Positions 13,064 to 42,436 of a DNA stretch of 64,000 nt are shown here, piece after piece. The notes below the pieces were generated by a model that saw only the letters and a list, made by a program, of their open reading frames with translations, did no database searches and was not told the DNA's origin. A program made the translations under genes and the position numbers. Source of the DNA: Lachnospiraceae bacterium (GTDB taxonomy: Bacteria; Bacillota; Clostridia; Lachnospirales; Lachnospiraceae). The stretch lies in contig JAFSBX010000106.1 in assembly GCA_017437065.1 (NCBI GenBank), forward strand, positions 1 to 64,000, written 5' to 3'. Position 1 is the first letter of the stretch. Every line of letters starts with the position of its first letter.

Positions 13064-13076
13064 GCAGGAGGTTGAA

Positions 13077-16000: not shown

Positions 16001-18446
16001 GCTTATAATACGAGCAGAAAATAGCAGATATATCAAATATAGATGTATGGGCGGAAAGGACACAGGATATAAATGGTATAGCGGCAAAACAGTGCGGTTA
16101 CCTGCTGGAGAAGAGACAGAAGTTACTTATACTTTTAAAATGGGAGATGCTTATGGTGTAACGGAAAGTGACAGTAATGCAAACTTTGTATTGTCCTTAG
16201 GAAAAATGAATGAAGAAGAAGAGACTGCAGCAGGAAAAGTAACCGTGACATTCGTAAGTATCGTGCTGAAAGAAGGAGGAACAGAGAATCCGGAAGAGAC
16301 GGAAACGGAAAGCGAGGAGGAAACGGAGACGGAGAGCCCGGAAGAGAAGGAAACGGAAAGTGCGGAGGAAACGGAGACGGAAGGTACGGAAGAGACGGAA
16401 AGTGCGGAGGAAACGGAGACGGAAAGTACGGAAGAGACGGAAACGGAAAGTGCGGAAGAGACGGAAACGGAAAGTGCGGAGGAAACGGAGACGGAAAGTC
16501 CGGAAGAGTCAGAGACGGAAAGTCCGGAAGAACCGGAAACAGAAGTGCCGGATAGTCCGGGGATTCAAGAGGGATTACGAGTAATAGATATTAATCAGCA
16601 GACCTACAGTGGAAAAGCAATGAAACCTGACGTATTGGTGTATGATGGTGCTGTGAAACTGCAGGAAAAAACAGATTATACATTATCTTTTAAAAACAAC
16701 AAAAATGTTGGTATTGCTACTGTAACGGTAAAAGGAAAAGGGAATTATGATGGAAAAGATACAGTTTCCTTTTCTATTGTTCCTAAAAGTATATCAGATG
16801 ATGATGTGATAATTAATTATAAAGATGCATTGATTGAAACAAATAAGAACCAGAAAGCGTTTCAGAAGATTACATACAATGGAGCTAAATTAGGAAGTAA
16901 AGATTACAAGGTAGAGTATTATCGGTATGAGGACGGTGTTGTGCCAAAAGGGGCAAAACCATTAAAGCAGATAAAGGCAGCAGGTGACTATAAGATGGTA
17001 ATTACCGGTCTTCATAATCCCAAAACAAATAAAGGAAACTTTACCGGAACTGTTGAAAAAGATATTAAAGTGTATGAAAAAAATTCTGTTGTGGATATCA
17101 GCAGGCTGACGATTAAGATTGGTGGAAAGAAATCCGGCTACAGTGTAGTGTGTGATGGTACACGACAAAAGCCTTCTGTTGAAGTAATTGCGAAAGGAAA
17201 AGTGATAGACAGCACGAATTACACCGTGGAATGGGAAGATGATTTAGTAAGTGCAGGAACGAAAAAAGTTGTTATTTCAGGGAAGGCGGAAAAAGGCTAT
17301 ATCGGTACAGTGACTAAAACATTTAAGATTACGGCTACAAATCTTTCGAATGTGGCAAAGATAGATACTGTTAAATGGTTAGCAAAAGTAAACGTTGATG
17401 TTCAGACAGGAAGGGCTGTACAGCCGGAAAATATGCTGATTGCCAAAAAAGCCAATTCGGGATTAAGACTGAAAGAAGGCACAGATTATACAGTAACTTA
17501 TCGTGGAAATGAAAAAGCAGGTAAGGCAACCGTAATATATACTGGAATCGGAAAATATAAAGGTACGATTAAGAAGACGTTTACAGTAAATGCAGTAGAA
17601 TTATTTACCCAAAATGAACCGGTTGCCGGTGTAGTGGTTGAGGGGATTACAGATGCAAAGGGTAATAGTGTCGCATCTATATTTCACCAGAAAGGAAGCA
17701 GGTTAGACATAACAGTCAGCATTAATGGAAAGGTGCTTAAGGAAGGTGTTGATTATAAGGTAACTTATAAGAGGAATAAAGCAGTTACAACAGGAAAAAT
17801 GAAGGAAAACCAAAAGCCACAGGTAATCATTCAGGGACTCAAAGCCTATAAAGGAAAATTAACAAAGAGTTTTGTCATTATTCCGGCCAGTTTAGAAGAT
17901 ATGAATATGACGGTTAAGGATGTGGCTTATCAAAAGAAGAAAGGCAAATATGTATCAGTTCCTGAACTTACAGATGCAGGCGGTGCGAAACTGAAAGTAA
18001 ACAGAGATTATACCTTGACATATTATTTGATTGACGGGGAGAAACAAACTAAACTGGATAAGAAAAAAGATGTCGTAGGAGTGTATTCAAAGGTGAAAGT
18101 AGTTGCAACAGCCAAGAGTGCAAATTACCGGGATAGCAGGGAAGCAGTATATACTGTAACAGTTCAGGATATTGCAAAAGCTAAGGTAGTGGTAAAATCT
18201 AAACAATATACAGGAAAAGAAATTACACTTACGGCAGAAGATTTTACTACAATCAGAATAGGCAAAACAAATCTGAAAGAAGGTGTACACTACATAATTG
18301 TGGCAGACAGTTATAAAAACAATATCAAACAGGGAACTGCAAGTGTGACAATCAGAGGCATCGGAGATTATGGAGGTACAAAGAAAGTAAACTATAAAAT
18401 TACAAGGCGGGCAATGGTTTGGGGACAGAACCTGTTTAAGTGGTAA
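13077..18446 (+). CDS. Secreted multidomain GH16 laminarinase (copy 1)
   Basis: I choose the ATG at 13077 because AGGAGG lies directly before it and it gives a clean signal peptide; an in-frame ATG at 13038 lies inside addA. The 1789-residue protein runs: signal peptide (about 1-33, ending VLA); Glu-rich 11-residue repeats (about 60-148); a GH16 domain (about 175-415) with catalytic GEIDIME (E285, D287, E290); four CBM4/9-like modules, each opening with NGDF, NGAF or NGNF (about 430-1075); a Thr/Glu/Ser linker; and bacterial Ig-like repeats of the YSGKAMKPDVLVYDG type to the end. The extra Met in EIDIME is the beta-bulge of laminarinases, as opposed to lichenases. No LPXTG motif is present. 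It would cut beta-1,3-glucan outside the cell. Confidence 0.88.
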   Translation: MKGKTVKWISYLLAFIMIFSDLMCYSTLTVLAEEIPCEAGMEDLTEGTEEERIVETESEKEEVAEETEREEEEVAEETEREEEEVAEETEREEEEVAEETEREEEEVAEETESEKEEVAEETEREEEEVAEEAEREEEEVIEETECTEEIGILTEISELEQEVVSEDGFILKFQEDFEGESLNTDYWSYVTYEPGRVNNELQEYTDSPNNIFVSGGILTIQANKEIRDGEDYYTSGRITTQDKFDFKYGRIEARIKVPEATGLLPAFWMMPSDENIYGQWPKSGEIDIMEILGQQTDTVYGTIHYGNPHKQSHEKYTLADGVKFSDDFHIFSVEWEPGMVTYYVDGIKYHEVNTWYTKEEGEDEITFPAPFDQNFYLIFNLAVGGDWPGNPDDTFSSEGEQLLVDWVKVWQKEFYDENVEKPEVYYREPDAEGNYIVNGDFSVEEDLFDARDWSFLLDEGGKGKATISDHMLSINTDEDGIGTQLYAVQLVQPQLPMKKGNTYKLTFEARAAEERTMVVDVSAPDNGWVRYLEDTSVQLGTEWEEYEYFFTMTYDSDVNGRLEFNLGNQNSTAQVQIRNVKLTVSSVSENDEEKSIRADGNYVYNGAFEIGTDRLKYWEIENTAEQAAVSVTNDNGERWLKVEVADKVSPDQIVIKQTGLALLPEKEYKLCLDAYGDVPKSIQLKVAGQTFEIELTSEADKYEYIFQTPAGLNNTDLEMYLGNAGITYIDNIVIKENVMLLNGDFNNNLVGWKYFTDSTIREDVTVGVVSEDGNNVLQYSISDTGNQDWRIQLKQDNILLEKGKKYKLSFKAKSDIDRKLKYALKKDRTTDNKWTSYTGTDIVELTNEYKEYSKTFTMSYDTDKAAILNVSLGAVEDVQIQQAHHIWMDDFVLVEVENEETNPENENPAELIKNGNFTRGNFGWRTVISEDEYAEVRFENNSAVFEIADTGTENGNIQLKQSGLNLEIGQEYIVKLIIRAENSRYIKYRCMGGKDTGYKWYSGKTVRLPAGEETEVTYTFKMGDAYGVTESDSNANFVLSLGKMNEEEETAAGKVTVTFVSIVLKEGGTENPEETETESEEETETESPEEKETESAEETETEGTEETESAEETETESTEETETESAEETETESAEETETESPEESETESPEEPETEVPDSPGIQEGLRVIDINQQTYSGKAMKPDVLVYDGAVKLQEKTDYTLSFKNNKNVGIATVTVKGKGNYDGKDTVSFSIVPKSISDDDVIINYKDALIETNKNQKAFQKITYNGAKLGSKDYKVEYYRYEDGVVPKGAKPLKQIKAAGDYKMVITGLHNPKTNKGNFTGTVEKDIKVYEKNSVVDISRLTIKIGGKKSGYSVVCDGTRQKPSVEVIAKGKVIDSTNYTVEWEDDLVSAGTKKVVISGKAEKGYIGTVTKTFKITATNLSNVAKIDTVKWLAKVNVDVQTGRAVQPENMLIAKKANSGLRLKEGTDYTVTYRGNEKAGKATVIYTGIGKYKGTIKKTFTVNAVELFTQNEPVAGVVVEGITDAKGNSVASIFHQKGSRLDITVSINGKVLKEGVDYKVTYKRNKAVTTGKMKENQKPQVIIQGLKAYKGKLTKSFVIIPASLEDMNMTVKDVAYQKKKGKYVSVPELTDAGGAKLKVNRDYTLTYYLIDGEKQTKLDKKKDVVGVYSKVKVVATAKSANYRDSREAVYTVTVQDIAKAKVVVKSKQYTGKEITLTAEDFTTIRIGKTNLKEGVHYIIVADSYKNNIKQGTASVTIRGIGDYGGTKKVNYKITRRAMVWGQNLFKW
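13257..13520 (+). repeat. 33-base tandem repeat, Glu-rich coding
   Basis: About eight in-frame copies of a 33-base unit encode EVAEETEREEE with small changes (ETESEKE in copy 5, an Ala change in copy 7, VIEETECTEE in the last). The near identity at DNA level points to recent slippage or unequal crossover. The stretch forms a highly acidic spacer between the signal peptide and the GH16 domain. Confidence 0.9.
16290..16555 (+). repeat. Thr/Glu/Ser-rich repeat linker in GH16 copy 1
   Basis: Degenerate repeats of a unit encoding ETETESAEE (with S, P, T or G variants) connect the carbohydrate-binding modules to the C-terminal Ig-like repeats. The DNA repeats the block GAGGAAACGGAGACGGAAAG. It is probably a flexible, negatively charged spacer whose length may vary between strains. 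Confidence 0.85.
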
Positions 18447-27450: not shown

Positions 27451-28260
27451 ATGGAAAAGAAAGAGAGAATAACAGAATCCGAATATCGTCTGGTGTGGGA
27501 AGATGATTTCGATGGTACAGAATTAAATATGGATGATTGGAATTATGAATATCATGAACCAGGCTGGGTAAATAATGAATTACAAGAGTATGTGGATTCT
27601 AAGGAAAATATCTTTGTGAAAGACAGTAATTTAATACTTAAAGCGATAAAAAGAGAAAAAGAAGGAAAAGTTTGTTATACGTCAGGTAGAGTTAATACAC
27701 AAAATAAGCATGATTTTAAATATGGCAGATTTGAAGCAAGACTGAAAGTACCAAGCGGAAAGGGATTTTTGCCTGCGTTTTGGATGATGCCTACTGAAGA
27801 GGAGTTTTATGGTCAGTGGCCAAAATGTGGCGAAATTGACATTATGGAAGTGCTTGGAGATCAGTTGGAAACAAATTATGGAACCATTCATTATGGTGAG
27901 CCACACGAACAGAATCAAGGAAGTTATACGTTGGCAGAGGGTGATTTTTCCGGCGAATATCATGTATATGCCTGTGAGTGGGAACCGGGTGAAATTAGGT
28001 ACTATGTAGATGGCAAGAAGTATCATACGGTAAATAACTGGTTTACCAAAAAAGAAGGAGAATCAGAGAAGGAATATCCGGCACCGTTTAATCAACTGTT
28101 TTACATAATTTTAAACGTTGCAGTAGGTGGAAATTGGCCGGGAAATCCGGAGCCGGATGCTGTTTTTGCAGAAAATGCAGAGATGTGGATTGACTATGTA
28201 AGAGTGTATCAGAAAGACAGCTATGATGAAAATGTAACAAAACGTGTGAAAGAAGCTTGA
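27451..28260 (+). CDS. GH16 laminarinase-type enzyme without signal peptide
   Basis: I choose ATG 27451 because GGAGA lies five bases upstream; an in-frame ATG at 27427 has no ribosome site. The 269-residue product is a bare GH16 domain starting MEKKERITESEYRLVWEDDF, with no signal peptide, membrane helix or binding module. Catalytic GEIDIME is at E128, D130 and E133, with the beta-bulge of beta-1,3-glucanases, and VNNELQEY is conserved. It is closely similar to the GH16 domains of both secreted enzymes. It appears to act inside the cell, cutting imported oligosaccharides for the phosphorylase encoded 44 bases downstream. Non-classical secretion cannot be ruled out. Confidence 0.88.
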   Translation: MEKKERITESEYRLVWEDDFDGTELNMDDWNYEYHEPGWVNNELQEYVDSKENIFVKDSNLILKAIKREKEGKVCYTSGRVNTQNKHDFKYGRFEARLKVPSGKGFLPAFWMMPTEEEFYGQWPKCGEIDIMEVLGDQLETNYGTIHYGEPHEQNQGSYTLAEGDFSGEYHVYACEWEPGEIRYYVDGKKYHTVNNWFTKKEGESEKEYPAPFNQLFYIILNVAVGGNWPGNPEPDAVFAENAEMWIDYVRVYQKDSYDENVTKRVKEA

Positions 28261-28304
28261 TAAAAATAAAATATAAAGCACATTTTGTGCGGACAGGAGG
28301 AAAA

Positions 28305-31004
28305 ATGAATCAGATTAGCTTTTTAGATAAAAATGGAAATTTTGCAATGAAACAGCCGGAAAATTATAGTTATTTATACTTTCCGGTGGCAGGTGAAAAA
28401 GGAATTAAAGGTGCTGTAACACCGAATTTTGGTGGAGATATTAAACTTAACCAGAATGCGTTCATTATGGAGCCGGTAAGTGCAGAGAATCTTCACAATA
28501 ACCGCTCAGGAAGAAATTTCTGGTGTACTGTAGAAGGTGTGGGAAGCTGGTCAACAGTAGGAGCTTCAGCAGAAGAGGAAGTAAAAAAGTTTACGGATTG
28601 TCAGGATAAAAGTGAGCTTATGGCAGGATTTATGTGGCACAGTATGGTAAGAAGTTCCATGAAATATCAGCTGACATCCAAGGTAACCTCTTTTGTTCCG
28701 TTGACACATAATGTAGAGATTATGCAGGTGGAAATATGTAATACGAGCCGTATGAAACAGACAATAACTCCTACGGCGGCAATTCCGATTTATGGAAGAA
28801 GTGCAGATGATATCAGGGATCACAGACATGTAACATCTTTATTACATAGAATTAAAACAACAAAATATGGTGTGGAAGTAAAACCTACTTTATCTTTTGA
28901 TGAACGTGGACATCAGAAAAATAATATCACATATTTCGTTTGTGGTATTTCAGGAGAAGGTGTTGCCCCGGTAGAGTTTTATCCTACAGTAGATGAATTT
29001 TTAGGAGAAGGCGGTAGTTTCACCTCTCCGGCAGCAGTGTTAAGAAAGAAAACCGGAGTACCGGAAGGAAGTGTATTTAGTGGAAGAGAAGCTGTAGGTG
29101 CATTCAAATTTAAACCGATTGAACTGGAACCACAGGAGAAGGTATCTTATACGGTGGTGATTGGTGCAACAGAAACACCCGAAGAAATAGAAGGTATTGT
29201 AAGTGCATTTGACACAGAAAAGAAAGTACAACAGGCACTGGAAAACCTAAAAGAATACTGGCAGAAACAAGTAAATGTAAGATACTATACCGGAAATGAA
29301 AGATTTGATAATTTTATGCGCTGGGTAAGTTTCCAGCCGATTTTAAGAAGAATTTACGGATGTTCCTTCTTACCGCATCATGATTACGGCAAAGGAGGCA
29401 GAGGATGGCGTGATTTATGGCAGGATTGTCTGGCACTGTTAATTATGAACCCGGATGTGGTTCGTCAGATGATTGTGGACAATTATGGCGGAGTCCGTAT
29501 GGACGGAACAAATGCAACCATTATTGGCGAGAAGCAGGGACAGTTTATTGCGGACAGAAATAATATTACCCGTGTATGGATGGATCATGGAGTATGGCCA
29601 TTTATGACTACCATGCTTTATATTAACCAGACCGGTGACATTGAAATTTTGAAAGAACAGGTAAAATATTTTAAAGACCGTCAGGTAGAAAGAGGAACAG
29701 GTATTGACGAAGAATGGACAGCGGAATATGGTGAAATCCAGAAAACAGTAGACGGAGAAGAGTATACAGGAACTATTTTAGAGCATTTACTGTTACAGCA
29801 TTTATGTGCGTTTTATGAAGTAGGGGAGCATAATCACATCAGACTGCGTGGTGCAGACTGGAATGATGCACTGGATATGGCAAATAAAAAAGGTGAAAGT
29901 GTTGCATTTACCAGTGCATATGCCGGAAATTTAAGAGATTTGGCAAACTATATGACGATTCTGAAAGAACAGACAGGTTGCACTACGGTAGAGATTCTTG
30001 AGGAAATGCAGATACTTTTAGAAGATAGTGATAAGCTTTATGAAAGTGTACAGGCAAAGACAGAATTATTGCAGAAATATGCAGTGAGCTGCAGACACAA
30101 TGTCAGTGGAAAAAAAGTCAATGTGGATATTGATACAGTAATCGAAAATTTGAGAAATAAATCGGAATGGATAGTAGAGCATATACGTAAAACAGAATGG
30201 GTAACAGATAACGAAGGAAATGGCTGGTTTAACAGTTATTATGATGACCATGGAAATGCGGTAGAAGGTATATTTGAAAAAGGAGTCCGCATGATGTTAA
30301 CCGGTCAGGTATTTACGGTAATGAGCGAAACAGCCGATTTAGAACAGGTAAAATCAATCTGTGTAAGTGCAGACAAATATCTTTACGAAAAAACAGTTGG
30401 CGGATATCGTTTAAATACAGATTTTAAGGAAGAAAAATTTGATTTAGGAAGAATGTTTGGATTTGCTTATGGTGAAAAAGAAAACGGTGCAGTATTCTCA
30501 CATATGACCGTTATGTATGCGAATGCTCTTTATAAGAGAGGGTTTGTAAAAGAAGGTTATAAAGCATTACAGACATTGGCAGACACGGCACTTAACTTTG
30601 AGGTAAGCAAAATTTATCCGGGTATTCCTGAATATTTTGATGCAAACGGAAGAGGAATGTATCATTATCTGACAGGAGCTGCCAGCTGGTACATGCTTAC
30701 CATGATTACAGAAGTATTTGGTGTACACGGTGAAGTTGGAAAAATGGTAATTGAGCCGAAGCTAGTAAGCAAACAGTTTGACGAAAACGGATGTGCTTCC
30801 ATTCAGGTAAATTTTGCACATAAAACCTTTGAAATTCAATTTTCCAACAAAAAAGGTCTGTCTTATGGAGAATATCAGGTAGGAAGTGCTATTTGTGACG
30901 GAAGTAAGAAATTACTTTACGAAGATGGACGTGTAGTAATTTCAAAAGAAGAGCTGTCCGCAATGGATGATTCGATGCATCGGATTGAAGTGGAATTACA
31001 ATAG
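28305..31004 (+). CDS. GH94 phosphorylase, laminaribiose phosphorylase type
   Basis: I choose ATG 28305 (GGAGG four bases upstream) over an in-frame ATG at 28257 that overlaps the GH16 stop. The 899-residue product is longer than cellobiose phosphorylases and resembles the Paenibacillus and Acholeplasma laminaribiose or beta-1,3-oligoglucan phosphorylase group: SYLYFPVAGEKGIKGAVTPN and SGRNFWCTVEG near the N-terminus, and RGWRDLWQD and LRGADWNDALD with the catalytic Asp at D518. It would convert laminaribiose plus phosphate into glucose 1-phosphate and glucose. It shares a transcript with the cytoplasmic GH16. The exact chain-length preference is not readable. Confidence 0.8.
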   Translation: MNQISFLDKNGNFAMKQPENYSYLYFPVAGEKGIKGAVTPNFGGDIKLNQNAFIMEPVSAENLHNNRSGRNFWCTVEGVGSWSTVGASAEEEVKKFTDCQDKSELMAGFMWHSMVRSSMKYQLTSKVTSFVPLTHNVEIMQVEICNTSRMKQTITPTAAIPIYGRSADDIRDHRHVTSLLHRIKTTKYGVEVKPTLSFDERGHQKNNITYFVCGISGEGVAPVEFYPTVDEFLGEGGSFTSPAAVLRKKTGVPEGSVFSGREAVGAFKFKPIELEPQEKVSYTVVIGATETPEEIEGIVSAFDTEKKVQQALENLKEYWQKQVNVRYYTGNERFDNFMRWVSFQPILRRIYGCSFLPHHDYGKGGRGWRDLWQDCLALLIMNPDVVRQMIVDNYGGVRMDGTNATIIGEKQGQFIADRNNITRVWMDHGVWPFMTTMLYINQTGDIEILKEQVKYFKDRQVERGTGIDEEWTAEYGEIQKTVDGEEYTGTILEHLLLQHLCAFYEVGEHNHIRLRGADWNDALDMANKKGESVAFTSAYAGNLRDLANYMTILKEQTGCTTVEILEEMQILLEDSDKLYESVQAKTELLQKYAVSCRHNVSGKKVNVDIDTVIENLRNKSEWIVEHIRKTEWVTDNEGNGWFNSYYDDHGNAVEGIFEKGVRMMLTGQVFTVMSETADLEQVKSICVSADKYLYEKTVGGYRLNTDFKEEKFDLGRMFGFAYGEKENGAVFSHMTVMYANALYKRGFVKEGYKALQTLADTALNFEVSKIYPGIPEYFDANGRGMYHYLTGAASWYMLTMITEVFGVHGEVGKMVIEPKLVSKQFDENGCASIQVNFAHKTFEIQFSNKKGLSYGEYQVGSAICDGSKKLLYEDGRVVISKEELSAMDDSMHRIEVELQ

Positions 31005-31305: not shown

Positions 31306-34300
31306 ATGAAGCGAAAAAATGTGAAATGGATATCGTATCTGTTAATTTGTGCAATGTCTTTTTCAAGTATGGCAAGCTATTCTTCCATAACTGCATACGC
31401 AGAAGAAGGTATAGCTACAGAAGAAACATTAGTAGTAGAAGAAACAGAAACATCCACAGTGGTTGAGGAAAGTAAAACCGGGGAAGAAACAGAAACCGGA
31501 ACAGAGATAGAAACAGAGGTTGTAACGGAAACCGGAACAGAGACAGAAACAGAGGTTGTAACGGAAACCGGAACAGAGGCAGAAACAGAAGTTGTAACAG
31601 AAACGGAAACAGAGACAGAAACAGAGGTTGTAACGGAAATTGAAACAGAGACGGAACCGGAAGTTGTAACAGAAGTTGAGACAGAAGCTGTGGAGGAAGA
31701 AACAGAAATTACGACAGAAAATGAAACAGAAGCTGCAACGGAAGTGGAAACCGAAACAGAAGAAGTTTTTGAAGTACAGGGTGAAATCGTAGAAGTAGTG
31801 TCCGATGCGCTTGATTTTGAACCGGAAAAAGATGGTGAATATACTTTAAAGTTTAAAGAAGAATTTACAGGAAACACATTAAATTCAAAATATTGGCAGC
31901 CGGAGTTACATGAACCGGGTTGGGTAAATAATGAATTACAGGAATATACAAATTCGGAAGAAAATATTTTCATTATCGAAGATGCAGAGGAAGAAGGAGA
32001 TGGAATTCTTGTCCTTCAGGCAAATAAAGAAACTCGTGACGGAAAAGATTATTATACATCAGGTAAAGTAACAACACAGAATAAGTATGATTTTAAATAC
32101 GGTAAGATAGAAGCCAGAATTAAAGTTCCGGAGGCAAAAGGATTACTTCCTGCTTTCTGGCTGATGCCAAGAAATGAACAGTTCTACGGACAGTGGCCAA
32201 GATGTGGTGAAATTGATGTTATGGAGGTACTTGGACATCAGACAGATACCGTGTACGGTACCATTCATTATGGAAATCCACATAAAGAGAAACAGGGGTC
32301 TTATACTTTAACAGACGGCAGTACATTTGCAAGTGGATATCATACCTTTACGGTAGAATGGGAACCGGGCAAGTTTACATACTATATGGATGGTATCAAA
32401 TATCATGAAGTAACAAACTGGTTTACAAAGACAGAAGGTGGGGATGAAATTACGTTTCCGGCACCGTTTGATCAGGAGTTTTATTTACAGTTAAATCTTG
32501 CAGTAGGCGGAAACTGGCCGGGAAATCCTGATGGTACTTTTAGTGCAGATGGTGAACAGCTCTGTGTAGACTGGGTAAAAGTATGGCAGAAGGATTCCTA
32601 TGATGAAAATGTGGAAAAACCGGAAGAAATCGTAAACTGGAGAGAACCGGATGCCAACGGAAACTATATTGTAAATGGTGATTTTGCTACAGCAGAAGCA
32701 TTAGATGATGAAGAGTACTGGAGCTTTTTAACAGCATTGGGAGGAGAAGCAGTTGCATCAATTGCAGGAAATATTTTAACAATTGATACAACAAATGCCG
32801 GTACGGTAGATTATTCCGTACAGCTTGTTCAGCCACAGCTTCCAATGAGAAAAGGAAATACATATAAGTTATCTTTTGATGCAAAAGCAGCTGCTGAAAG
32901 AACAATGATTGTGGATGTATCCGGTCCGGATAATGGATATATTCGTTATTTCAATGATACAAAACTTACTCTTGGAACAGAGTGGGCAACTTATGAATAT
33001 ACCTTTACAATGACAGGGGAAGATGATGCAAACGGTCGTTTGGAATTTAACCTTGGAAATCAGGGCTCAGCAGCACAGGTACAGCTGAAAAATGTAAAAT
33101 TGGAAGTAACAGGAAAAGAGGAATTAGAGGAAGATTCCGGTATGCTTCCGGATGGTAATTATGTGCATAACGGTACATTTGATATTGGAACAAATCGTCT
33201 TGGATACTGGGATGTAGTAAACACAGCAGAAAATGCAACAGTAAGCGTAACAAATGACAATGGTGTGCGTCAGTTGAAAGTAGACGCAACTGCGGTAACA
33301 GCGCTTGAACAAGTGGTTGTAAAACAAAAAGAACTGGCATTAGTAGCAGGTACAGAATATGAGCTTACTTTTGATGCTTATGCAGATGCAGCAAAAAGTG
33401 TGAAAGTGATTGTTGCAGGTCAGACAATGGATGTGGATTTGACGGAAACAAATCAAAAGTTTACTTACAAATTTAAAACACCGGAAGAACCGGGCAACAC
33501 AGATTTAGAGTTGCATTTGGGTACCACAGGAACAACGTATGTAGATAATGTAACAATCAAAGAGGATTCACCACTTGTAAACGGTGAATTTAATAATAAA
33601 ATGGCTGGTTGGGAGCATTTTGCAGATTCCGGCATCAGCAGTGCGGTAACTGCGGAAGTGGTAAAAGAAGATGACAACAATGTAATCAGATATACCATTG
33701 GTAATACAGGAGATGCCGATTGGAAAATCCAGTTAAAACAGAATAATATTACTCTGGAAAAAGGAAAGAGTTATAAACTTGCATTCAAAGCAAAATCAGA
33801 TATGAATAGAAAAATTATGTTTGCTTTACAAAGAGATGGGGCGAGTGATAATGATTGGACATCCTATTCCGGAACAGACATTATTGATTTAACAAATGAA
33901 TATGCAGAATATTCCAAAACATTCACAATGAGTAATGCCACAGATACAGCAACTATTTTAAGTATTTCCATGGGTGCAGTAGGTGGTACGCAGATTACGG
34001 AAGAACATCACGTTTGGATGGACAGCTTTACATTAGTTGAAGTAGAACCGGAAGAACTTCCGAAAGAAGAAATGGGTGCTACAGGAGTCATCAGAAACGG
34101 TAACTTCGTAGAAGGTGATAAAAACTGGCAGGTGACCATTAATGCACCGGCAAAAGCAACCGTTGATTTTAGTAATAATAGTGCTACTTTTGATATTGAT
34201 GAAGTAGGAAGTGAAAACTGGCATATACAGTTAAAACAGTCAGGAATCCATTTGGAATATGGTCAGGAATATGTAATTACCATGAAAATGCAGGCGGAAA

Positions 34301-36393
34301 ATACAAGAGATGTTGAATTCTGTTGTATGAGTACAGGTTATGCATGGTATGGCGGTGGAATGGCAAAACTGATTGGTGGAAAAGAAACTGTAATTTCCCA
34401 TACATTCAGAATGGGTGATGCCAATGCGACAGAAAGTGATGCCAATGCAGATTTTACTTTATCCTTAGGTAAAATTGCAGGAGGAGAATCTGCTGCCGGT
34501 AAAGTAACCGTAAAATACATTAGTATTATGCCGAAGGAAGATGTAGTTTCCGAGGGATTACGCGTATTACCGATGGAAGACAGAACTTATACCGGAAAGG
34601 CAATAATACCTGTAGTTGTAGTATACGATGGTGCAGTTCCATTACAGGAAAAAACAGATTATGTGGTATCTTTCAAAGACAATAAGAAAGCAGGTACTGC
34701 AAAAGTAACTGTAACAGGAAAAGGCAATTATGCCGGAACAGCAGCTACGGAATTTAAGATAATAGCAAAAGATGTGGCAGCAGAGGATGTTGTAATCAGT
34801 TACAAGGACAAGCTTCTTGATACAGGTAAAAACCAGAAACCATTAAGTAAAATTTCCTATAACGGAATTACATTAAACACTAAAAATGATTATAAAGTAG
34901 AGTACTTTAAATGCGTAAACGGGGAAGTACCGGAAGATGCAAAAGCTTTATCCCAGATTAAAGCAGCAGGCGACTACAGGATGGTAATTACCGGTAAAGG
35001 AAACTTTACAGGAACCGTAACCAAAGATGTAAAAGTGTATGCTAAAAATTCCGTTGTGGATATCAGCAAAACAGCAATTACCGTTGGCGGAAAGAAATCC
35101 GGTTACAGCGTAGTGTGTGACGGAACCGAAAAGAAACCGGAAATAAAAGTAACTTACAAGGGAAAAGTAGTTGACAGTGCAAATTATACAGTGAACTATG
35201 AAAACAATGTAAACGTAGGAACAGCCAAAGTTACCATTACCGGTGTCATGACAGAAACAGAAGACGGCGTAACAGGATATATCGGTTCTGTGACAAAGAC
35301 TTTTAAAATCAAAGCAACCAAACTTTCTGACGTAGCTGCAATTGACACTACAAAATGGAAGAACAAAGTAGATTTCAATGAAACTTTAGGTGCAGCAGTA
35401 CAGGAAAGCGAAATGCTGAAACTGAAAGCCGGAAAAACAGATGATACTTTTGCGGAAGGTACTGCATATAAAGTAAGCTACAGCAAAAATACAAAAGCCG
35501 GAAAAGCAACCGTAATCTATACCGGTATCGGTAAATATTCAGGAACTATCAAGAAGAACTTTACCGTAAATGCCGTGGAATTATTCAAAGATAATCAGGC
35601 AAAAACAGGAGTAGAGGTAAGCATTGGTAAAACTGCAGTGTATGCACAGAAGGGCAGCAAAGTAGATGTAGTTGTCAGCTTAAACGGAACAACACTTGTA
35701 GAAGGTAAGGATTATAAAGTAACCTACAAAAATAACAAAGCAGCTACAACTGAAAAAACAAAGGAAAATAAGAAACCTCAGGTAACTATTACAGGTATTA
35801 ATGGTTACAAAGGAAAGATTACTGCGAAGTTTACTATTACACCTGCTGATTTATCAACAATGGATATAAAAGCGGCAGACGTGGCTTACCAGAACAAAAA
35901 AGGTAAATACAAGTCAGCACCGGTACTGACAGATGCAGACGGTAAGAAATTAAAAGTAAACAGAGATTACACAGTAAAATACTATTTAGCAGCAGACGGA
36001 ACAGAACTGGGTAAAAATGATGTAGTGGATGCAGGCGAAGCCGTGAAAGTGGTAGTAACAGCAAAAGGCAAAAACTACACAGGAAGTAACGAAGCAGTAT
36101 ACAAAGTTGCAGTACAGGATATTTCCAAAGCGAAAGTAGTTGTAAAAACCAAACCATATACAGGAAAAGCAATTACACTTACAGCAGAAGATTTTACGAC
36201 AATTAAAGTAGGAGATACAAAATTAAAAGAGGGAGTACACTACGAAATCGTAGAAGACAGCTATGAGAATAATATCAACAAAGGAACTGCAAGTGTAACA
36301 ATCAAAGGAATCGGAAACTATGCCGGAACGAAAAAAGTTACTTTTAAAATTACAAGTCGCGCGATGGCGTGGTTCCAGAATATATTCAAATAA
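31306..36393 (+). CDS. Secreted multidomain GH16 laminarinase (copy 2)
   Basis: A 1695-residue paralogue of the enzyme at 13077, with the same order of parts: signal peptide (about 1-32, MKRKNVKWISYLLICAMSFS onward); a Thr/Glu-rich repeat stalk (about 45-165); a GH16 domain (about 180-430) with catalytic GEIDVME (E302, D304, E307); four CBM4/9-like modules (NGDF, NGTF, NGEF and NGNF starts); then Ig-like repeats with YTGKAIIPVVVVYDG and similar. Unlike copy 1 it lacks the second acidic linker before the Ig-like part. The C-terminus ends RAMAWFQNIFK, almost the same as copy 1, with no LPXTG. It has its own promoter region and terminator. A callose, fungal wall or laminarin substrate is inferred. 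Confidence 0.9.
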   Translation: MKRKNVKWISYLLICAMSFSSMASYSSITAYAEEGIATEETLVVEETETSTVVEESKTGEETETGTEIETEVVTETGTETETEVVTETGTEAETEVVTETETETETEVVTEIETETEPEVVTEVETEAVEEETEITTENETEAATEVETETEEVFEVQGEIVEVVSDALDFEPEKDGEYTLKFKEEFTGNTLNSKYWQPELHEPGWVNNELQEYTNSEENIFIIEDAEEEGDGILVLQANKETRDGKDYYTSGKVTTQNKYDFKYGKIEARIKVPEAKGLLPAFWLMPRNEQFYGQWPRCGEIDVMEVLGHQTDTVYGTIHYGNPHKEKQGSYTLTDGSTFASGYHTFTVEWEPGKFTYYMDGIKYHEVTNWFTKTEGGDEITFPAPFDQEFYLQLNLAVGGNWPGNPDGTFSADGEQLCVDWVKVWQKDSYDENVEKPEEIVNWREPDANGNYIVNGDFATAEALDDEEYWSFLTALGGEAVASIAGNILTIDTTNAGTVDYSVQLVQPQLPMRKGNTYKLSFDAKAAAERTMIVDVSGPDNGYIRYFNDTKLTLGTEWATYEYTFTMTGEDDANGRLEFNLGNQGSAAQVQLKNVKLEVTGKEELEEDSGMLPDGNYVHNGTFDIGTNRLGYWDVVNTAENATVSVTNDNGVRQLKVDATAVTALEQVVVKQKELALVAGTEYELTFDAYADAAKSVKVIVAGQTMDVDLTETNQKFTYKFKTPEEPGNTDLELHLGTTGTTYVDNVTIKEDSPLVNGEFNNKMAGWEHFADSGISSAVTAEVVKEDDNNVIRYTIGNTGDADWKIQLKQNNITLEKGKSYKLAFKAKSDMNRKIMFALQRDGASDNDWTSYSGTDIIDLTNEYAEYSKTFTMSNATDTATILSISMGAVGGTQITEEHHVWMDSFTLVEVEPEELPKEEMGATGVIRNGNFVEGDKNWQVTINAPAKATVDFSNNSATFDIDEVGSENWHIQLKQSGIHLEYGQEYVITMKMQAENTRDVEFCCMSTGYAWYGGGMAKLIGGKETVISHTFRMGDANATESDANADFTLSLGKIAGGESAAGKVTVKYISIMPKEDVVSEGLRVLPMEDRTYTGKAIIPVVVVYDGAVPLQEKTDYVVSFKDNKKAGTAKVTVTGKGNYAGTAATEFKIIAKDVAAEDVVISYKDKLLDTGKNQKPLSKISYNGITLNTKNDYKVEYFKCVNGEVPEDAKALSQIKAAGDYRMVITGKGNFTGTVTKDVKVYAKNSVVDISKTAITVGGKKSGYSVVCDGTEKKPEIKVTYKGKVVDSANYTVNYENNVNVGTAKVTITGVMTETEDGVTGYIGSVTKTFKIKATKLSDVAAIDTTKWKNKVDFNETLGAAVQESEMLKLKAGKTDDTFAEGTAYKVSYSKNTKAGKATVIYTGIGKYSGTIKKNFTVNAVELFKDNQAKTGVEVSIGKTAVYAQKGSKVDVVVSLNGTTLVEGKDYKVTYKNNKAATTEKTKENKKPQVTITGINGYKGKITAKFTITPADLSTMDIKAADVAYQNKKGKYKSAPVLTDADGKKLKVNRDYTVKYYLAADGTELGKNDVVDAGEAVKVVVTAKGKNYTGSNEAVYKVAVQDISKAKVVVKTKPYTGKAITLTAEDFTTIKVGDTKLKEGVHYEIVEDSYENNINKGTASVTIKGIGNYAGTKKVTFKITSRAMAWFQNIFK
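31490..31760 (+). repeat. 36-base-period Thr/Glu repeat in GH16 copy 2
   Basis: Degenerate in-frame repeats encode units like TETGTETETEVV. They occupy the same position as the Glu-rich repeat of copy 1 (between signal peptide and GH16) but with a different unit, so the two stalks expanded independently. Confidence 0.85.
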
Positions 36394-36479: not shown

Positions 36480-37034
36480 CTAAGCGGCAGCCATCGCTTT
36501 CGCTTTCCTCAATGCCGTTGCGACCGGTGGTAAAGCAATCAAAACAACCGTAGCAATCATCTCCGGTAAGATATAACTCAGGTTATACTGTGTAGAAGCA
36601 ACAACTGCCAGCAGATTCCCCTGCATATCCCCCACGTATTCCGTATAAAAAATCAGTCCCGAAATCATATGAAACACAAAGCGCCCCAAAACGCCTACAA
36701 TATACCCCGTTAATAACCCATGCTTTCTATTGCTGAAAAAACCGGAAAGTCCTAAAGCACCGAAAGCCAGAGGATAGTCTAACAGTACCTGTGCCGGATG
36801 TACGAAATAAGGTCCGATGATAAATTGTAAAATTCCGTAAGTTGCAGCGGTAATCAGTCCGATTGCCGGACCATACCAGTAGCCCGTCAGACAAATAATC
36901 AGCATGGAAAAAAGAGTAATGGAACCGCCGTTTGGCAAAGAAGGCAGTTTGATGACTGCGGAAATAACAGTAGCAAGTGCCAAAGCCATGGCACAGAAAA
37001 CGAGTTGTTTTGTTGAAAGTTTACTTTTAGACAT
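36480..37034 (-). CDS. thiT: Thiamine ECF transporter S component
   Basis: A 184-residue membrane protein with about six helices and the ThiT pattern (KQLVFCAMALALATVISAVI, LPNGGSITLFSMLIICLTGY, YPLAFGALGLSGFF). ThiT binds thiamine outside and is energised by the shared EcfA-EcfA'-EcfT module, which is not encoded here. Identification is supported by the TPP riboswitch in its leader. The ribosome site GGAGGA lies eight bases before the ATG and is itself part of a hairpin ending in seven T residues. It stands alone, convergent with GH16 copy 2. Confidence 0.93.
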   Translation of the reverse strand: MSKSKLSTKQLVFCAMALALATVISAVIKLPSLPNGGSITLFSMLIICLTGYWYGPAIGLITAATYGILQFIIGPYFVHPAQVLLDYPLAFGALGLSGFFSNRKHGLLTGYIVGVLGRFVFHMISGLIFYTEYVGDMQGNLLAVVASTQYNLSYILPEMIATVVLIALPPVATALRKAKAMAAA

Positions 37035-37300: not shown

Positions 37301-37424
37301 GAGGAAAAATACATTTTGGCTTATTTTTTATGTAAGAATGCAAGAATAGACACTACCAAATTAAAGGGAAATATGGTAAGATGAGGTATAAGTGGGAGTT
37401 TGTATACAAAAGGCGGGTAAGAAT

Positions 37425-39710
37425 ATGGCAGAAAGCAAAAAGAAATTTACGATTGGGGTACTGGTTGGCGGAATTATGGATGAGTTTACGCATCAGATTT
37501 GCAAGGGGGCATTAAGGGAAGCAAAAGCTGCAGATGTAGATGTAATTGTATTTCCGGGAAAATATTGGGAGCGTGATTTATCAGACAATAGGGAATTAAG
37601 GTATGAGTATCAGTATAATACCATTTTTTCCTATGCCAAACAGGTAGATGCGTTGATTATAGCAGCAGGAAGTATCGGTTGTTATACAACAAAAGAAGGA
37701 ATGGAAACCCTGTTGAAAAAATTTGAGGACATTCCTTCTGTGTTGATTGCTTCTAAGATAGAAGGATATACCAGTGTGGTTTTTGATAATTATCTGGGAA
37801 TCAAAGAAGGGCTGGAATATCTGATTGAAAAAAGAAACTGTAAGAAATTCGGAATGGTAGGCGGAAGCCTGGAAAATATGGATGCATATGAAAGAAAACA
37901 GGCTTTTACCGGTGTGTTATCAGAACATGGAATTGAATTTACGGAAAACATGTATGTGGAAGGCGATTTTTCCAAAAGAGGAAAGGCTGTTTGCAAAAAG
38001 CTTCTGGATGATAATCCGGATATTGAGGCAATTTTTTGCGTAAACGATGATACTGCCCTCGGGTTATATGAGGAGTTAAAACGTAGAGGACTTCAGGCGG
38101 GAAGAGACATTTTTGTACTGGGATATGATGACTCGCTTGCAGCGGCAAAGGCAATACCATCACTTTCTTCCGTAAGAGCAGATTCCGCAAAATTAGGTGC
38201 AGAAGCACTGCGGATGGCGGTACGAATGGTACACGGCGAGAATGTGAAAAGTCAGGTGGTTCCAACTCAGTTTGTGATGCGAGATTCTTTCAATAGAGAA
38301 GAAACGCAGACAGCAATACATTTTCGCTATGCAAAAGATTATATAAACGGATTTGAAGAAATTTTTTATCGATATTGTCATGAAGAAACAAAAGATGAGA
38401 TGGACAGACTGCGTACTGCATACAGACAAATGTTGGAAGTACTGGATAAAAATGCGGAAATTAGTTTTGCAGACAGTACCGGATACATGGAAATTATGCT
38501 TTGTGTGGATGAATTTTTAAATTTAGGTGGCGTAGAGTACGCGGATGCAGATAATCTGATGCTTATACTGGAAGAAGTATATGGTACGTTAAGGAAAAAA
38601 CAAACAGAAAGAAACGGAAGAACGGAGCTTCGAAATGTATTTTTCAATATTTACAGAAAAATTGTTCGGTCCATGAACGGCTTAATGATTAGTATGAAAG
38701 AAACAGAAGACCGGGAAAACTATGAAATGAAGCTGTTTGTACAGGAAATCCTTTCTTTTGAAAAAGGTAAGGATCAAAGTTATAGTGTGTTATTGGAAAA
38801 ATTAGACTGGCTGCATATTAAAAATGCTCAAATATATTTGCTTCCACAGCCGGTATTACATCTATATAAAGAAGACTTTGAACTGCCGGAAGAGTTCTAT
38901 TTAAAAGCTGTATTAGAGAATGGAGTGGTGCAGGCAGTTTCTGTAAGTAATCAGAAGAAAAGTTTGGAAGAAGTATTTGCGTATGATTTGAAATTACGGA
39001 AAAACAGAGTTGTCCTTCCTTTATTTTTCAATGAAATAATTTACGGAATACTGTTTTGTGATATGACGGACAGTTTGTTTGTCAACGGAGAATTTTTAGT
39101 TAACCAGATGAGTTCAGCAGTAAAAATGATTTCACTGTTGGAAGCAAATGAAAAAATACAGAGTATGCTGGAAGAAAATGTTTCAGTGCTTAAGGAACAT
39201 AACATTGAACTGGATACTATTTCAAAATCGGATGTACTTACAGGTATTTTGAATCGTAGAGGTTTTTATGATGTAGCAGAAGAAAAAGTACAGAGTTGTC
39301 GTCAGATGGGAAAATCGGTATTGGCTGTCTATGTTGATATGAATAATCTGAAAATTATTAATGACAGATATGGACATGAAGAAGGTGATTTTTCACTGAA
39401 ATTGATTGGCAGATTTCTCAAAGAATCAGTGGAAGGAAATGGTGTTGCGGGAAGAATTGGTGGTGATGAGTATGCTTTTGTTATGGAATACGATGGAAAT
39501 GATGACGGGGCAGCAGTTCTTTCCACGTTGTACGAAAAATTTGAAAACTATAATTTAGAAAGTGAAAAGCCATATAATATAACAATTTCGGCAGGTGCAT
39601 GTATAATACATGCAGAAAGTGAACTGGGATTGCATGAAGCTCTTTTAAAGGCAGACGAAAAGTTATACGAGGTAAAGCAGCATAGAAAGAAGGATGTTGC
39701 GAAAAAATAA
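37425..39710 (+). CDS. Cytoplasmic LacI-type sugar-binding domain fused to GGDEF
   Basis: I choose ATG 37425 over the GTG at 37392, which opens the frame. The 761-residue protein has a periplasmic-binding-like domain of the LacI type (about 8-290: FTIGVLVGGIMDEFTHQIC, SVLIASKIEGYTSVVFDNYL, EAIFCVNDDTALGLYEELKR, FVLGYDDS). It lacks the DNA-binding helix-turn-helix and has no signal peptide or membrane helix. A long helical and GAF-like middle (about 300-605) leads to a GGDEF domain with GGDEY at 679-683; no RxxD inhibitory site is seen five residues before it. It would make c-di-GMP in response to a small ligand, probably a sugar. It lies next to the glucan locus. Confidence 0.85.
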   Translation: MAESKKKFTIGVLVGGIMDEFTHQICKGALREAKAADVDVIVFPGKYWERDLSDNRELRYEYQYNTIFSYAKQVDALIIAAGSIGCYTTKEGMETLLKKFEDIPSVLIASKIEGYTSVVFDNYLGIKEGLEYLIEKRNCKKFGMVGGSLENMDAYERKQAFTGVLSEHGIEFTENMYVEGDFSKRGKAVCKKLLDDNPDIEAIFCVNDDTALGLYEELKRRGLQAGRDIFVLGYDDSLAAAKAIPSLSSVRADSAKLGAEALRMAVRMVHGENVKSQVVPTQFVMRDSFNREETQTAIHFRYAKDYINGFEEIFYRYCHEETKDEMDRLRTAYRQMLEVLDKNAEISFADSTGYMEIMLCVDEFLNLGGVEYADADNLMLILEEVYGTLRKKQTERNGRTELRNVFFNIYRKIVRSMNGLMISMKETEDRENYEMKLFVQEILSFEKGKDQSYSVLLEKLDWLHIKNAQIYLLPQPVLHLYKEDFELPEEFYLKAVLENGVVQAVSVSNQKKSLEEVFAYDLKLRKNRVVLPLFFNEIIYGILFCDMTDSLFVNGEFLVNQMSSAVKMISLLEANEKIQSMLEENVSVLKEHNIELDTISKSDVLTGILNRRGFYDVAEEKVQSCRQMGKSVLAVYVDMNNLKIINDRYGHEEGDFSLKLIGRFLKESVEGNGVAGRIGGDEYAFVMEYDGNDDGAAVLSTLYEKFENYNLESEKPYNITISAGACIIHAESELGLHEALLKADEKLYEVKQHRKKDVAKK

Positions 39711-39802: not shown

Positions 39803-42436
39803 ATGAAAAAAATAGTAATCGGAATTTTAGCACATGTAGATGCGGGTAAAACAACTTTATCGGAGGCTATGCTGTATAAATGCGGCAGCATAAGGAGTTT
39901 GGGAAGAGTAGATAACAAGGACGCGTTTCTTGATACATATACGTTAGAGAGAGAACGTGGAATCACTATCTTTTCCAAGCAGGCAAGGATAAAAACAGAA
40001 AGTCTGAGTATTACTTTACTGGATACTCCCGGACATGTGGATTTTTCTTCGGAGATGGAACGGACGTTGCAGGTGTTGGATTACGCGATATTAGTAATCA
40101 ACGGTGCGGATGGTGTGCAGGGGCATACGGTAACCCTGTGGAGTCTCCTTAGAAAATATAAAATTCCGGTTTTTTTATTTGTCAATAAAATGGACCAGAA
40201 CGGGACGGACAGTAAGAAGCTTTTGTTAGAATTGCAGTCCCGCTTAAATGAAAATTGTATAGATTTTTCTGAAAAAAAAGAAAATTTTTATGAGCAGGCA
40301 GCCATGTCGGATGAAGCGGCACTGGAAGAATATCTTGAAAACGGAATCCTGACGGATGAAGTGCTTAGAGAACTTATTTATAAAAGAAAAATCTTTCCGT
40401 GCTTTTTCGGTTCTGCACTGAAGCTTACCGGAGTAGAGGAATTTTTGTCCGGTCTGGAAACTTATACGAAGGAACCGGATTTCAAAAAAGATTTTGGTGC
40501 AAAGGTGTTTAAAATCACAAGGGATGAACAGGGGAACCGTCTGACATTTATGAAAGTCACAGGAGGCAGCCTGAAAGTAAAATCTTTTTTAGTTGAAGAA
40601 GAAAAAGTAAATCAGATTCGTATTTATTCCGGAGAAAAATTCGAGGCTGTGAGTGAAGTGCAGGCGGGAGATGTCTGTGCGGTAATGGGACCTTTAAAAA
40701 CGTATCCGGGACAGGGAATCGGAGTGGAGAGTGCATCAGGAATGCCGGTGTTAGAACCGGTACTTACCTGCAGTATACAGTTGCCGGAAGGGTGCGACGT
40801 GGCTGTTATGTTGCCAAAATTACGCCAGCTGGAAGAAGAAGATCCAATGCTTCATATCATATGGAATGAAAGTCTGCAGGAAATTCAGGCACAGATTATG
40901 GGTGAAATCCAAATTGAAATATTAAAGAGTATGATTTTGGAACGGTTTGGTGTAGCAGTAGAGTTTGGTTCCGGAAACATTGTTTATAAGGAGACGATTA
41001 AAAACAGTGTGGAAGGTGTAGGACATTTTGAGCCTTTAAAACACTATGCGGAAGTACATCTTTTATTGGAACCTGCTGAAACGGGAAGTGGATTGAGCTT
41101 TTTTACGGATTGTAGTGAGGACATGCTTGCGAAAAACTGGCAGAGGCTTATTTTAACTCATTTAGAGGAAAAAGAGCATAAAGGTGTGTTAACAGGTGCT
41201 GCAATTACGGATATGAAAATTACGCTGGTGGCAGGGCGGGCGCATCTGAAGCATACGGAAGGCGGAGATTTCCGACAGGCAACTTACCGGGCATTGAGGC
41301 AGGGATTAAAGCAGGCAGAAAGTGTTCTGTTAGAGCCTTATTATGAATATCGGTTAGAGGTGCCGGAGACAGTGATTGGCAGGGCAATGACAGATTTGGA
41401 AAAACGTTGCGGAACCTTTGAGATAGCAGGAAATAACGATGGAACAGCCGTATTGACAGGAATGGTTCCGGCGGTAAATATGCAGGATTACCAGACTGAG
41501 GTCAGTGCTTATACAAAGGGGCAGGGCAGACTGTTTATGTCATTGAAAGGGTATTTACCATGTCATAATGCACAAGAAGTAATTGAAAAAGCAGGTTATG
41601 ATTCAGAGAGGGATTTAGAAAATCCAACGGGTTCCGTTTTTTGTGCACATGGAGCAGGCTTTGTTGTGGAATGGAATCGTGTAAAAGAATATATGCATGT
41701 GGATAGCGGACTGGATTTTTCTGAACAGAATCAGGACAAGGTTTCATTGGACAGACATGAGGGGAATGCCGGAACAGCTTCCGCGGAAATGACGATTGGA
41801 ACGGAAGAAATAGATCAGATTTTAGAGCGGACATTTCATGCCAATACAAAGGATAAAACAAATGGAAAAGCAAGGACTCCGTGGAAGAAGAAGCCGGCAT
41901 ATGTACCGGCAAAAACCAGCGAATGGAAACCGAAACAGGCAGAGAAAAAGGAACAATATTTACTGGTGGACGGCTACAATATTTTGTTTGCATGGGAAGA
42001 ACTGGCGGAGCTTGCTAAAATCAATATTGACAGTGCAAGAGGACAGCTATTGGATACATTATGTGATTATCAGGCAATGAAGGGCTGTCAGCTGATTGTT
42101 GTGTTTGATGCTTACCGGGTAAAAGGTCATGCAGAAGAAGTGACAGACTATCATAACATTCATGTGGTTTATACAAAGGAAGCGGAAACAGCGGATCAAT
42201 ATATAGAGAAGTTTGCCCATGAAAACGGTAGCAAGTATCAGGTTACGGTAGCGACCTCTGACGGATTGGAACAGATTATTATCAGAGGACAGGGATGCCT
42301 TTTGGTGTCTGCGAGAGAGTTGCGGGAAGAAGTAGAGCGTACAAAGCAGTTTGTACGGGAAGAATACATTGAAAAACAGCAGACAGGAAAAAATCGTTTG
42401 ATGGAAGGAATCATGCCGGATATAGTTGACAACTAG
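39803..42436 (+). CDS. TetM/EF-G-like GTPase fused to a Rae1 (YacP)-like NYN nuclease
   Basis: An 877-residue two-part protein. Residues 1 to about 660 are a ribosomal-protection or EF-G-type GTPase: G1 AHVDAGKTT (10-18), G2 RERGITIFS, G3 DTPGHVDF, G4 NKMD, then domains II-V. After a basic linker, residues about 717-865 are a complete NYN domain (YLLVDGYNILFAW, LIVVFDAYRVKGHAEE, YTKEAETADQYIEK, VATSDGLEQIIIRGQG) that follows Bacillus subtilis Rae1 closely. Rae1 cuts mRNA in the ribosomal A site; TetM and EF-G bind the same site. Such proteins are often annotated as tetracycline resistance, but a housekeeping ribosome-linked RNase role is more likely. That role is inference. Confidence 0.85.
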   Translation: MKKIVIGILAHVDAGKTTLSEAMLYKCGSIRSLGRVDNKDAFLDTYTLERERGITIFSKQARIKTESLSITLLDTPGHVDFSSEMERTLQVLDYAILVINGADGVQGHTVTLWSLLRKYKIPVFLFVNKMDQNGTDSKKLLLELQSRLNENCIDFSEKKENFYEQAAMSDEAALEEYLENGILTDEVLRELIYKRKIFPCFFGSALKLTGVEEFLSGLETYTKEPDFKKDFGAKVFKITRDEQGNRLTFMKVTGGSLKVKSFLVEEEKVNQIRIYSGEKFEAVSEVQAGDVCAVMGPLKTYPGQGIGVESASGMPVLEPVLTCSIQLPEGCDVAVMLPKLRQLEEEDPMLHIIWNESLQEIQAQIMGEIQIEILKSMILERFGVAVEFGSGNIVYKETIKNSVEGVGHFEPLKHYAEVHLLLEPAETGSGLSFFTDCSEDMLAKNWQRLILTHLEEKEHKGVLTGAAITDMKITLVAGRAHLKHTEGGDFRQATYRALRQGLKQAESVLLEPYYEYRLEVPETVIGRAMTDLEKRCGTFEIAGNNDGTAVLTGMVPAVNMQDYQTEVSAYTKGQGRLFMSLKGYLPCHNAQEVIEKAGYDSERDLENPTGSVFCAHGAGFVVEWNRVKEYMHVDSGLDFSEQNQDKVSLDRHEGNAGTASAEMTIGTEEIDQILERTFHANTKDKTNGKARTPWKKKPAYVPAKTSEWKPKQAEKKEQYLLVDGYNILFAWEELAELAKINIDSARGQLLDTLCDYQAMKGCQLIVVFDAYRVKGHAEEVTDYHNIHVVYTKEAETADQYIEKFAHENGSKYQVTVATSDGLEQIIIRGQGCLLVSARELREEVERTKQFVREEYIEKQQTGKNRLMEGIMPDIVDN

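Follow-up and report, generated by a model that had tools for sequence, protein, structure and literature searches.

The 64,000-nucleotide stretch of Lachnospiraceae DNA analyzed here (the window; contig JAFSBX010000106.1) encodes an 877-residue protein in which a translational GTPase is followed, in one reading frame, by an NYN nuclease domain of the Rae1 (YacP) type. Such fusions are common in many Clostridia, gut species included. From the comparisons described below, there appears to be an even chance that the fusion is the house-keeping Rae1 of its lineage, built into a translational GTPase and replacing the stand-alone rae1 gene, and that it acts by cutting mRNA in the ribosomal A site. 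The architecture itself has been known since 2015; what is new is its breadth, the apparent replacement of rae1, a distinct domain IV tip, and a conserved helix in the linker between the two parts. The features of the fusion gene are as follows.

39803..42436, + strand: fusion gene, 877 aa, ATG start (ORF translation); the sole YacP found in its own genome
39812..40468, + strand: G domain, residues 4-222, G1-G5 present (Pfam GTP_EFTU, 176 bits)
40496..40969, + strand: EF-G domains II and III, residues 232-389 (Pfam EF-G_D2, 232-297; EFG_III, 318-389)
40976..41320, + strand: EF-G domain IV, residues 392-506 (Pfam EFG_IV)
41234..41275, + strand: domain IV tip GRAHLKHTEGGDFR, residues 478-491, without the Tet loop YYSPVSTPADF
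41324..41572, + strand: EF-G domain V, residues 508-590 (Pfam EFG_C)
41549..41698, + strand: C-terminal element of the GTPase, residues 583-632, with C587-H588 and SVFC614-A-H616 (row comparison)
41699..41953, + strand: linker, residues 633-717 (AlphaFold model, pLDDT below 50 at 641-667 and 677-713)
41801..41836, + strand: conserved linker helix TEEIDQILERTF, residues 667-678 (motif in 101/108 linkers; low-confidence helix in the model)
41954..42421, + strand: NYN/Rae1 nuclease domain, residues 718-873, with D723, N726, D769, D798, and D820 (Pfam NYN_YacP, PDB 5mq8, invariance)

All six Pfam domains of the fusion exceed their cut-offs, five of EF-G and then NYN_YacP, and the translation contains AHVDAGKTT, RGITI, DTPGHVDF, NKMD, and SAL, which we take to be the G1 to G5 motifs; with domains G, II, III, IV, and V and these motifs, the protein belongs to the EF-G family. 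The G motifs are kept across an alignment of 74 fused proteins, G1 by construction because it was used to pick the rows. This set consists of the window and 73 of 80 loci; five loci were dropped for want of a long frame (L046, L070, L075, L105, and L112), and two fused ones (L110 and L121) have Ser for Ala in G1, outside the row-picking pattern. The NYN_YacP match (residues 720-873) scores 176 bits against a cut-off of 24.6 (E = 8e-52), and Bacillus subtilis Rae1/YacP (PDB 5mq8 and 5mq9) aligns with the domain at an E value of 5e-29 over chain residues 3-156 of 181, that is, with no match to the C-terminal tail of Rae1 in this alignment. The active-site residues D723, N726, D769, D798, and D820, located in the DGYN, VFDA, TAD, and ATSD motifs that mark Rae1/YacP, are present in 74/74 fused proteins and, in a second set, in 46/46 fused and 21/21 stand-alone or split NYN domains; they are likewise invariant in L110 and L121, which were included in later alignments. 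The first-pass annotation had read the frame as a full translational GTPase with its G motifs, followed by a complete NYN domain tracking B. subtilis Rae1, and had made this reading depend on conservation of the catalytic Asp residues across homologues; both domain calls hold, with the motifs as it named them, and the Asp residues are conserved in every row examined. An assembly or frame artefact was ruled out by the recurrence of the long frame: the NYN domain lies in a frame of more than 850 residues at 75 of the best 80 loci, in a search that leans toward fusions because 13 of the 15 rows of the search alignment came from fusion-length frames.

The excerpts available to us (PMC8266666, PMC6613710, PMC12320835) describe B. 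subtilis Rae1 as an endonuclease that acts on mRNA in the A site, and cutting there frees the site for tmRNA (PMC12320835). B. subtilis Rae1 has the NYN domain and active-site residues in common with the fusion but is a stand-alone protein, encoded, according to those excerpts, next to yacO (rlmB), whereas the fusion carries a GTPase in the same chain. The fusion is the single YacP match in its genome, an assembly of 3.9 Mb in 156 contigs. This genome contains the run cysE, cysS, an RNase III-domain gene, rlmB (C55), and a gene for a SigH-type factor, with 63 bases and no rae1 between rlmB and sigH; the fusion lies away from rlmB, a location after rlmB being usual for Rae1 rather than defining. 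Among 20 stand-alone rae1 loci, hand-chosen from the family and class samples described below, rlmB precedes rae1 by 15-188 bp in 16, sigH lies downstream in 17, and both neighbors are present in 15; the exceptions are L199, which is cut by a contig end, L197, with sigH only, and L196 and L212, with neither. In a Paenibacillus record, the genes run cysS, RNase III gene, rlmB, rae1, sigH, and a separate NYN-less GTPase has the tip NEHTHGGDFRE. A separate intact Rae1 in the same genome, which the first-pass annotation had named among the findings that would speak against it, did not turn up in the genome-wide YacP search.

The neighborhood of stand-alone rae1, which adjoins rlmB and has an RNase III-domain gene further upstream in most of the 20 loci, fits another role, in which the GTPase would target damaged ribosomes or pre-ribosomes, where the nuclease it carries, the NYN domain, would trim or cut rRNA or tRNA. 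Atkinson 2015 (PMC4342817), as excerpted, cites an older proposal that this domain has a role in the maturation of rRNA and tRNA and suggests testing rRNA cutting. However, the characterized member cuts mRNA in translating ribosomes, according to the partial accounts seen, and the five active-site residues are identical in fused and stand-alone NYN domains, so that a function in rRNA or ribosome quality appears unlikely.

The breadth of the fusion was assessed in two samples; outside Clostridia, coverage consisted of plasmid and phage records and 14 control genomes. In the class sample (Clostridia, n = 243; frames tabulated by hand, with 11 YacP genomes lacking a listed frame), 84 genomes carry the fusion and 4 carry split or cut fusions; 10 have a separate GTPase and a stand-alone YacP, 5 the GTPase only, 55 a stand-alone YacP only, 8 a YacP with an unlisted or cut frame and no GTPase match, and 77 neither. 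The fused form (84) is thus somewhat commoner than the stand-alone one (65, or up to 73 with the unlisted frames). The survey for fusions without a stand-alone rae1 that the first-pass annotation proposed gave a uniform answer: each of the 84 fused class genomes has one YacP over the cut-off, and no second one was found in them, the extra matches in three being below the cut-off. In the family sample (Lachnospiraceae, 200 genomes from 199 genera), YacP was detected in 180; of 149 YacP frames listed, 131 have at least 848 residues, 5 have 516-735, and 13 have fewer than 300, some of the short ones being contig-end cuts or split fusions. With these counts made by hand and 31 YacP genomes without a listed frame, fusion-length frames are present in at least 131/200 genomes. 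No GTPase was found at an E value of 1e-150 in the 20 family genomes without YacP. Five family genomes have two YacP matches. In G039 and G173 the second is a partial piece on another contig, in G130 it belongs to the same frame as the first, in G154 it comes from a duplicate contig, and in G076 it falls below the cut-off, which rules out a second rae1 beside the fusion in these cases. Among fusion-less class genomes, co-occurrence of the separate GTPase and YacP is not clearly above chance (10 with both, 5 GTPase only, 55 YacP only, 77 neither; Fisher P = 0.098, leaving out the 8 YacP genomes with unlisted or cut frames and the 4 broken fusions).

The GTPase part, judged by its sequence, is neither a Tet protein nor EF-G proper but a separate subfamily, nearest to Tet among the sampled rows. 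Its best NCBIfam match is tet_protect, at 420 bits against a curated cut-off of 775, and the EF-G model (TIGR00484) gives 311 bits against 659; by sequence, TetO and TetM are the closest proteins of solved structure. A profile built from 16 fused GTPase parts scores the listed fusions, all but four (672, 799, 804, and 838), at 924-1200 bits and NYN-less members of the clade at 715-805 bits (one cut copy at 600), compared with 342-388 bits for genuine Tet genes of the family and 267-269 bits for the two further EF-G-like genes of the window's own genome. At the tip of domain IV, most fusions have G-[RK]-A-H-x-K-H-T-E-G-G-D-F-R in place of YYSPVSTPADF. The Tet loop SPVSTPADF is present in 5/5 Tet rows and in 0/70 fused or NYN-less clade rows, with alignments to TetM and TetO also compared, whereas KHTxGGDF is found in 45/48 fused and 22/22 NYN-less rows of the tree set, two further fused rows having a near form and one (L185) no match to the pattern. 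The 2/2 EF-G rows have the tip YHxVDSSEMAF; by eye, His481 of the fusion falls on the EF-G tip His, which we take to be His583 of Escherichia coli, because the loops are of equal length and no gaps are needed. The fusion resembles EF-G in its domains, its GTPase motifs, and the His at the matching tip position but differs from it in the rest of the tip and in having a linker and an NYN domain. Tet(M), Tet(O), and Tet(W), the nearest sampled relatives outside the clade, are also five-domain EF-G-like GTPases, but they have another domain IV tip and C-terminal tail and no NYN domain. The description of the GTPase as "TetM-like" in the first-pass annotation was therefore too close, given the separate subfamily, the missing Tet tip, and 420 bits against 775.

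The C-terminal element (residues 583-632) is common to the NYN-less relatives and absent from the sampled Tet and EF-G rows. C587 and C614 are Cys in 74/74 fused proteins, with His588 in 67 and His616 in 70, and the SxFC pattern occurs in 46/48 fused, 21/22 NYN-less, and 0/8 other rows; together, C587, H588, C614, and H616 are a possible metal site after domain V, conserved in the GTPase clade.

Atkinson 2015 (PMC4342817), in the portion available, reports that a YacP-like NYN domain has been gained by Tet proteins in ten clostridial species and that these Tet-NYN proteins may represent a new resistance mechanism; the fusions described here are presumed to be the same proteins. The shared features are a Tet-group GTPase and the added YacP-like domain, but that account files the fusion under Tet, whereas here the GTPase forms what looks like a separate subfamily, widespread and apparently standing in for rae1. 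Among the matches listed from the open-licence full texts searched, a scope outside which the main Rae1 papers fall, no paper addressed what the fusion does. A tetracycline ribosomal protection protein to whose activity the RNase domain would add is consistent with TetO and TetM as nearest solved structures, with tet_protect as best NCBIfam match, and with the names given by NCBI to some copies. In addition, excerpted reports describe a chromosomal "TetM," of approximately the length of the NYN-less relatives and a possible member of their clade, that confers resistance in Bacillus toyonensis (PMC5209696) and a Tet(M) loop III triple mutant that is still active (PMC4750697), so that a different loop is no proof against resistance. 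Yet the score remains below the Tet cut-off and the tip reads AHxKHTEGGDFR rather than YYSPVSTPADF; furthermore, genuine Tet genes over the cut-off, found in 7 of 60 family genomes checked, coexist in 7/7 cases with a YacP in a fusion-length frame (at least 903 residues), and the frequency of fusion-length frames across 199 genera resembles that of a core gene. The plasmid data point in both directions: the GTPase part is carried, at an E value of 1e-90, by 38 plasmid records, 15 of them typed mobilizable, but at least 80% of the fusion is held by only 2 of 72,556 records, both large replicons typed non-mobilizable. A mobile resistance gene is not supported for the fusion by these counts, and tetracycline resistance conferred by the fusion appears, on the whole, quite improbable. 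The prediction of the first-pass annotation that the gene would usually be labeled tetracycline resistance is correct for an Agathobacter rectalis record ("TetM/TetW/TetO/TetS family tetracycline resistance") but not for a Monoglobus record ("translation factor GTPase family protein"). An apparent core gene of translation and mRNA decay is thus named as a resistance gene in some records, which could inflate resistome counts.

In the GTPase tree, the 48 fused rows form one group (SH-aLRT 86) together with two further rows, one a split and one a contig-cut fusion, beside which 19 NYN-less rows group together (94), along with one lone NYN-less row. This first tree left out L186, L143, and L150 as well as duplicate loci; the second and third trees used a simpler model and left out the long branches L184 and RF3, and in the second the fused group has a support of 99.9. 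When the NYN-less protein of Ligilactobacillus salivarius was added, a quick tree nested it inside the fusions (one enclosing branch, 97), whereas a tree holding the fusions together is 19.35 log units likelier than the quick tree (p-AU 0.655); by these trees, the L. salivarius protein would either have lost its NYN part or branch off beside the fusions. The NYN tree, which comes from a short domain, needs 6 changes between fused and alone and is compatible with more than one history. Multiple fusion events are not needed on the first two GTPase trees, and the sampled fusions, which fit one clade, probably derive from a single event. Some relatives lack the NYN domain but have an almost identical tip, and most of them come from genomes in which rae1 is separate. 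In 10 of the 243 class genomes, an unfused clade GTPase is present alongside a stand-alone YacP, which suggests that the two partners are older than the fusion. In the window's family, two genomes (loci L196 and L212) have a stand-alone NYN protein that is very similar to the fused one and not located by rlmB or sigH, together with a separate NYN-less GTPase; possibly, the NYN part split off later or moved. Members of the clade occur on large replicons in A. rectalis, Monoglobus, and L. salivarius. The L. salivarius plasmid NZ_CP047413.1 (L237) encodes an NYN-less clade GTPase with the tip ASNVHTVGGDFRQ, labeled tetracycline resistance and adjoining rpsN (S14) and a gene for a putative metal homeostasis protein. 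The GTPase seems useful without the nuclease, since this NYN-less copy is kept on L. salivarius megaplasmids.

The linker between the domain hits spans 58-221 residues (median, 76; 108 linkers). An AlphaFold model, made with 51 aligned fusions (mean pLDDT 81, pTM 0.62), predicts the GTPase and NYN parts well and places a low-confidence helix at residues 667-678 between linker segments with pLDDT below 50 (641-667 and 677-713); when the model was compared with the PDB by Foldseek, the best 50 rows listed EF-G-family structures. The pattern E-[LIVA]-x-x-[IV]-[FLMIY]-x-x-[TAS] occurs in 101/108 linkers, whereas 200 rounds of shuffling gave 0.7 matches on average and 4 at most, a contrast that is overstated because the pattern was written after viewing the linkers and the 108 linkers are related; two earlier, differently written patterns matched 28/74 and 10/20. 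Single columns are nearly invariant (E669 in 73/74, I673 in 74/74, and T677 in 68/74). The helix may be a docking element, either for the ribosome or for the rest of the protein.

A long, disordered linker of varied length, joining two parts each of which occurs alone in other genomes, would also be expected if the fusion served co-regulation only, with the NYN domain working as an ordinary Rae1, the GTPase relieving pauses, and the linker keeping equal dose or proximity to the ribosome. We consider this rather unlikely: the fusion is kept over many families and fits one origin, the helix is conserved within an otherwise variable linker, and the old rae1 place is empty.

The preferred reading, a Rae1 delivered by its own GTPase, combines these observations into a mechanism. 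The GTP form would bind 70S ribosomes at the factor site and place the conserved domain IV tip in an empty A site, as offered by a stalled ribosome; GTP hydrolysis would move or release domain IV, whereupon the tethered NYN domain would reach the A-site codon and cut the mRNA, leaving a truncated message open to tmRNA rescue, while the conserved linker helix might serve to dock the nuclease or to park it. Because domain IV and Rae1 would compete for one A site, they would have to act in turn, with GTP hydrolysis as the switch. According to excerpts, the site occupied by Tet proteins overlaps those of EF-G and of the drug in the A site, and the drug is held to be dislodged by loop III of domain IV (PMC8161019, PMC4750697). 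The architecture, the conservation, the empty slot, and the clade are read directly from sequences; the mechanism is extrapolated from the two families, and we regard it as evenly poised between right and wrong. The fused GTPase would not be needed for cutting as such, since B. subtilis Rae1 works as a separate protein. The joining of Rae1 to a GTPase of the ribosomal kind across much of the family gives a testable hint that Rae1 is delivered by a translational GTPase, so that the search for a stuck ribosome and the cutting of its mRNA may fall to a single protein.

A bolder version, GTP-gated no-go decay in a single protein, in which the GTPase probes empty A sites and the helix restrains the nuclease until GTP is hydrolyzed, is offered tentatively. 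If it were true, only truly stalled ribosomes would have their mRNA cut, and the fusion would be a bacterial counterpart, in one chain, of an endonuclease working with a GTPase-assisted stall sensor; it would also provide a dominant gut family with its standard route of stall decay. RelE-type toxins, in the partial accounts seen, resemble the proposed role in that mRNA is cut at a stalled or targeted ribosome and rescue follows. SmrB and MutS2, further ribosome-linked mRNA nucleases, show the same resemblance. To our knowledge, neither these nor the RelE-type toxins have a GTPase in the same chain.

The NYN domain was also matched, at an E value of 1e-5, in 13 of 50,697 phage records (MT835514.1 and MT835563.1 among them), which may hold true phage genes or be bacterial contigs; two of the matching records come from fecal samples and show 54-62% identity.

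No operon partner emerged: the RsmF-like gene of the window was matched downstream at 4/75 loci (at 1, 265, 6333, and 7172 bp). The other recurrent neighbor groups, found at up to 30/95 loci, resemble, by eye, antisense frames of the fusion gene itself or promiscuous families (for example, sensor and ABC-transporter genes), and none of the neighbor groups at the loci compared points to a pathway. Just upstream of the fusion gene in the window, positions 37392-39710 (+) encode a single protein with a periplasmic-binding/LacI-type sensor domain and a GGDEF domain. Further upstream are two very large proteins (13038-18446 and 31306-36393, both +), both of which combine a GH16 domain with four CBM_4_9 stretches; Thr/Glu-rich repeats are present early in the second. 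The first has a TTG start (13038) that overlaps with the UvrD-helicase/PDDEXK gene before it and may be misassigned. A GH94-like gene (28257-31004) is located between the two GH16 proteins, and a thiamine transporter YuaJ-like ECF S component is encoded at 36480-37034 (-).
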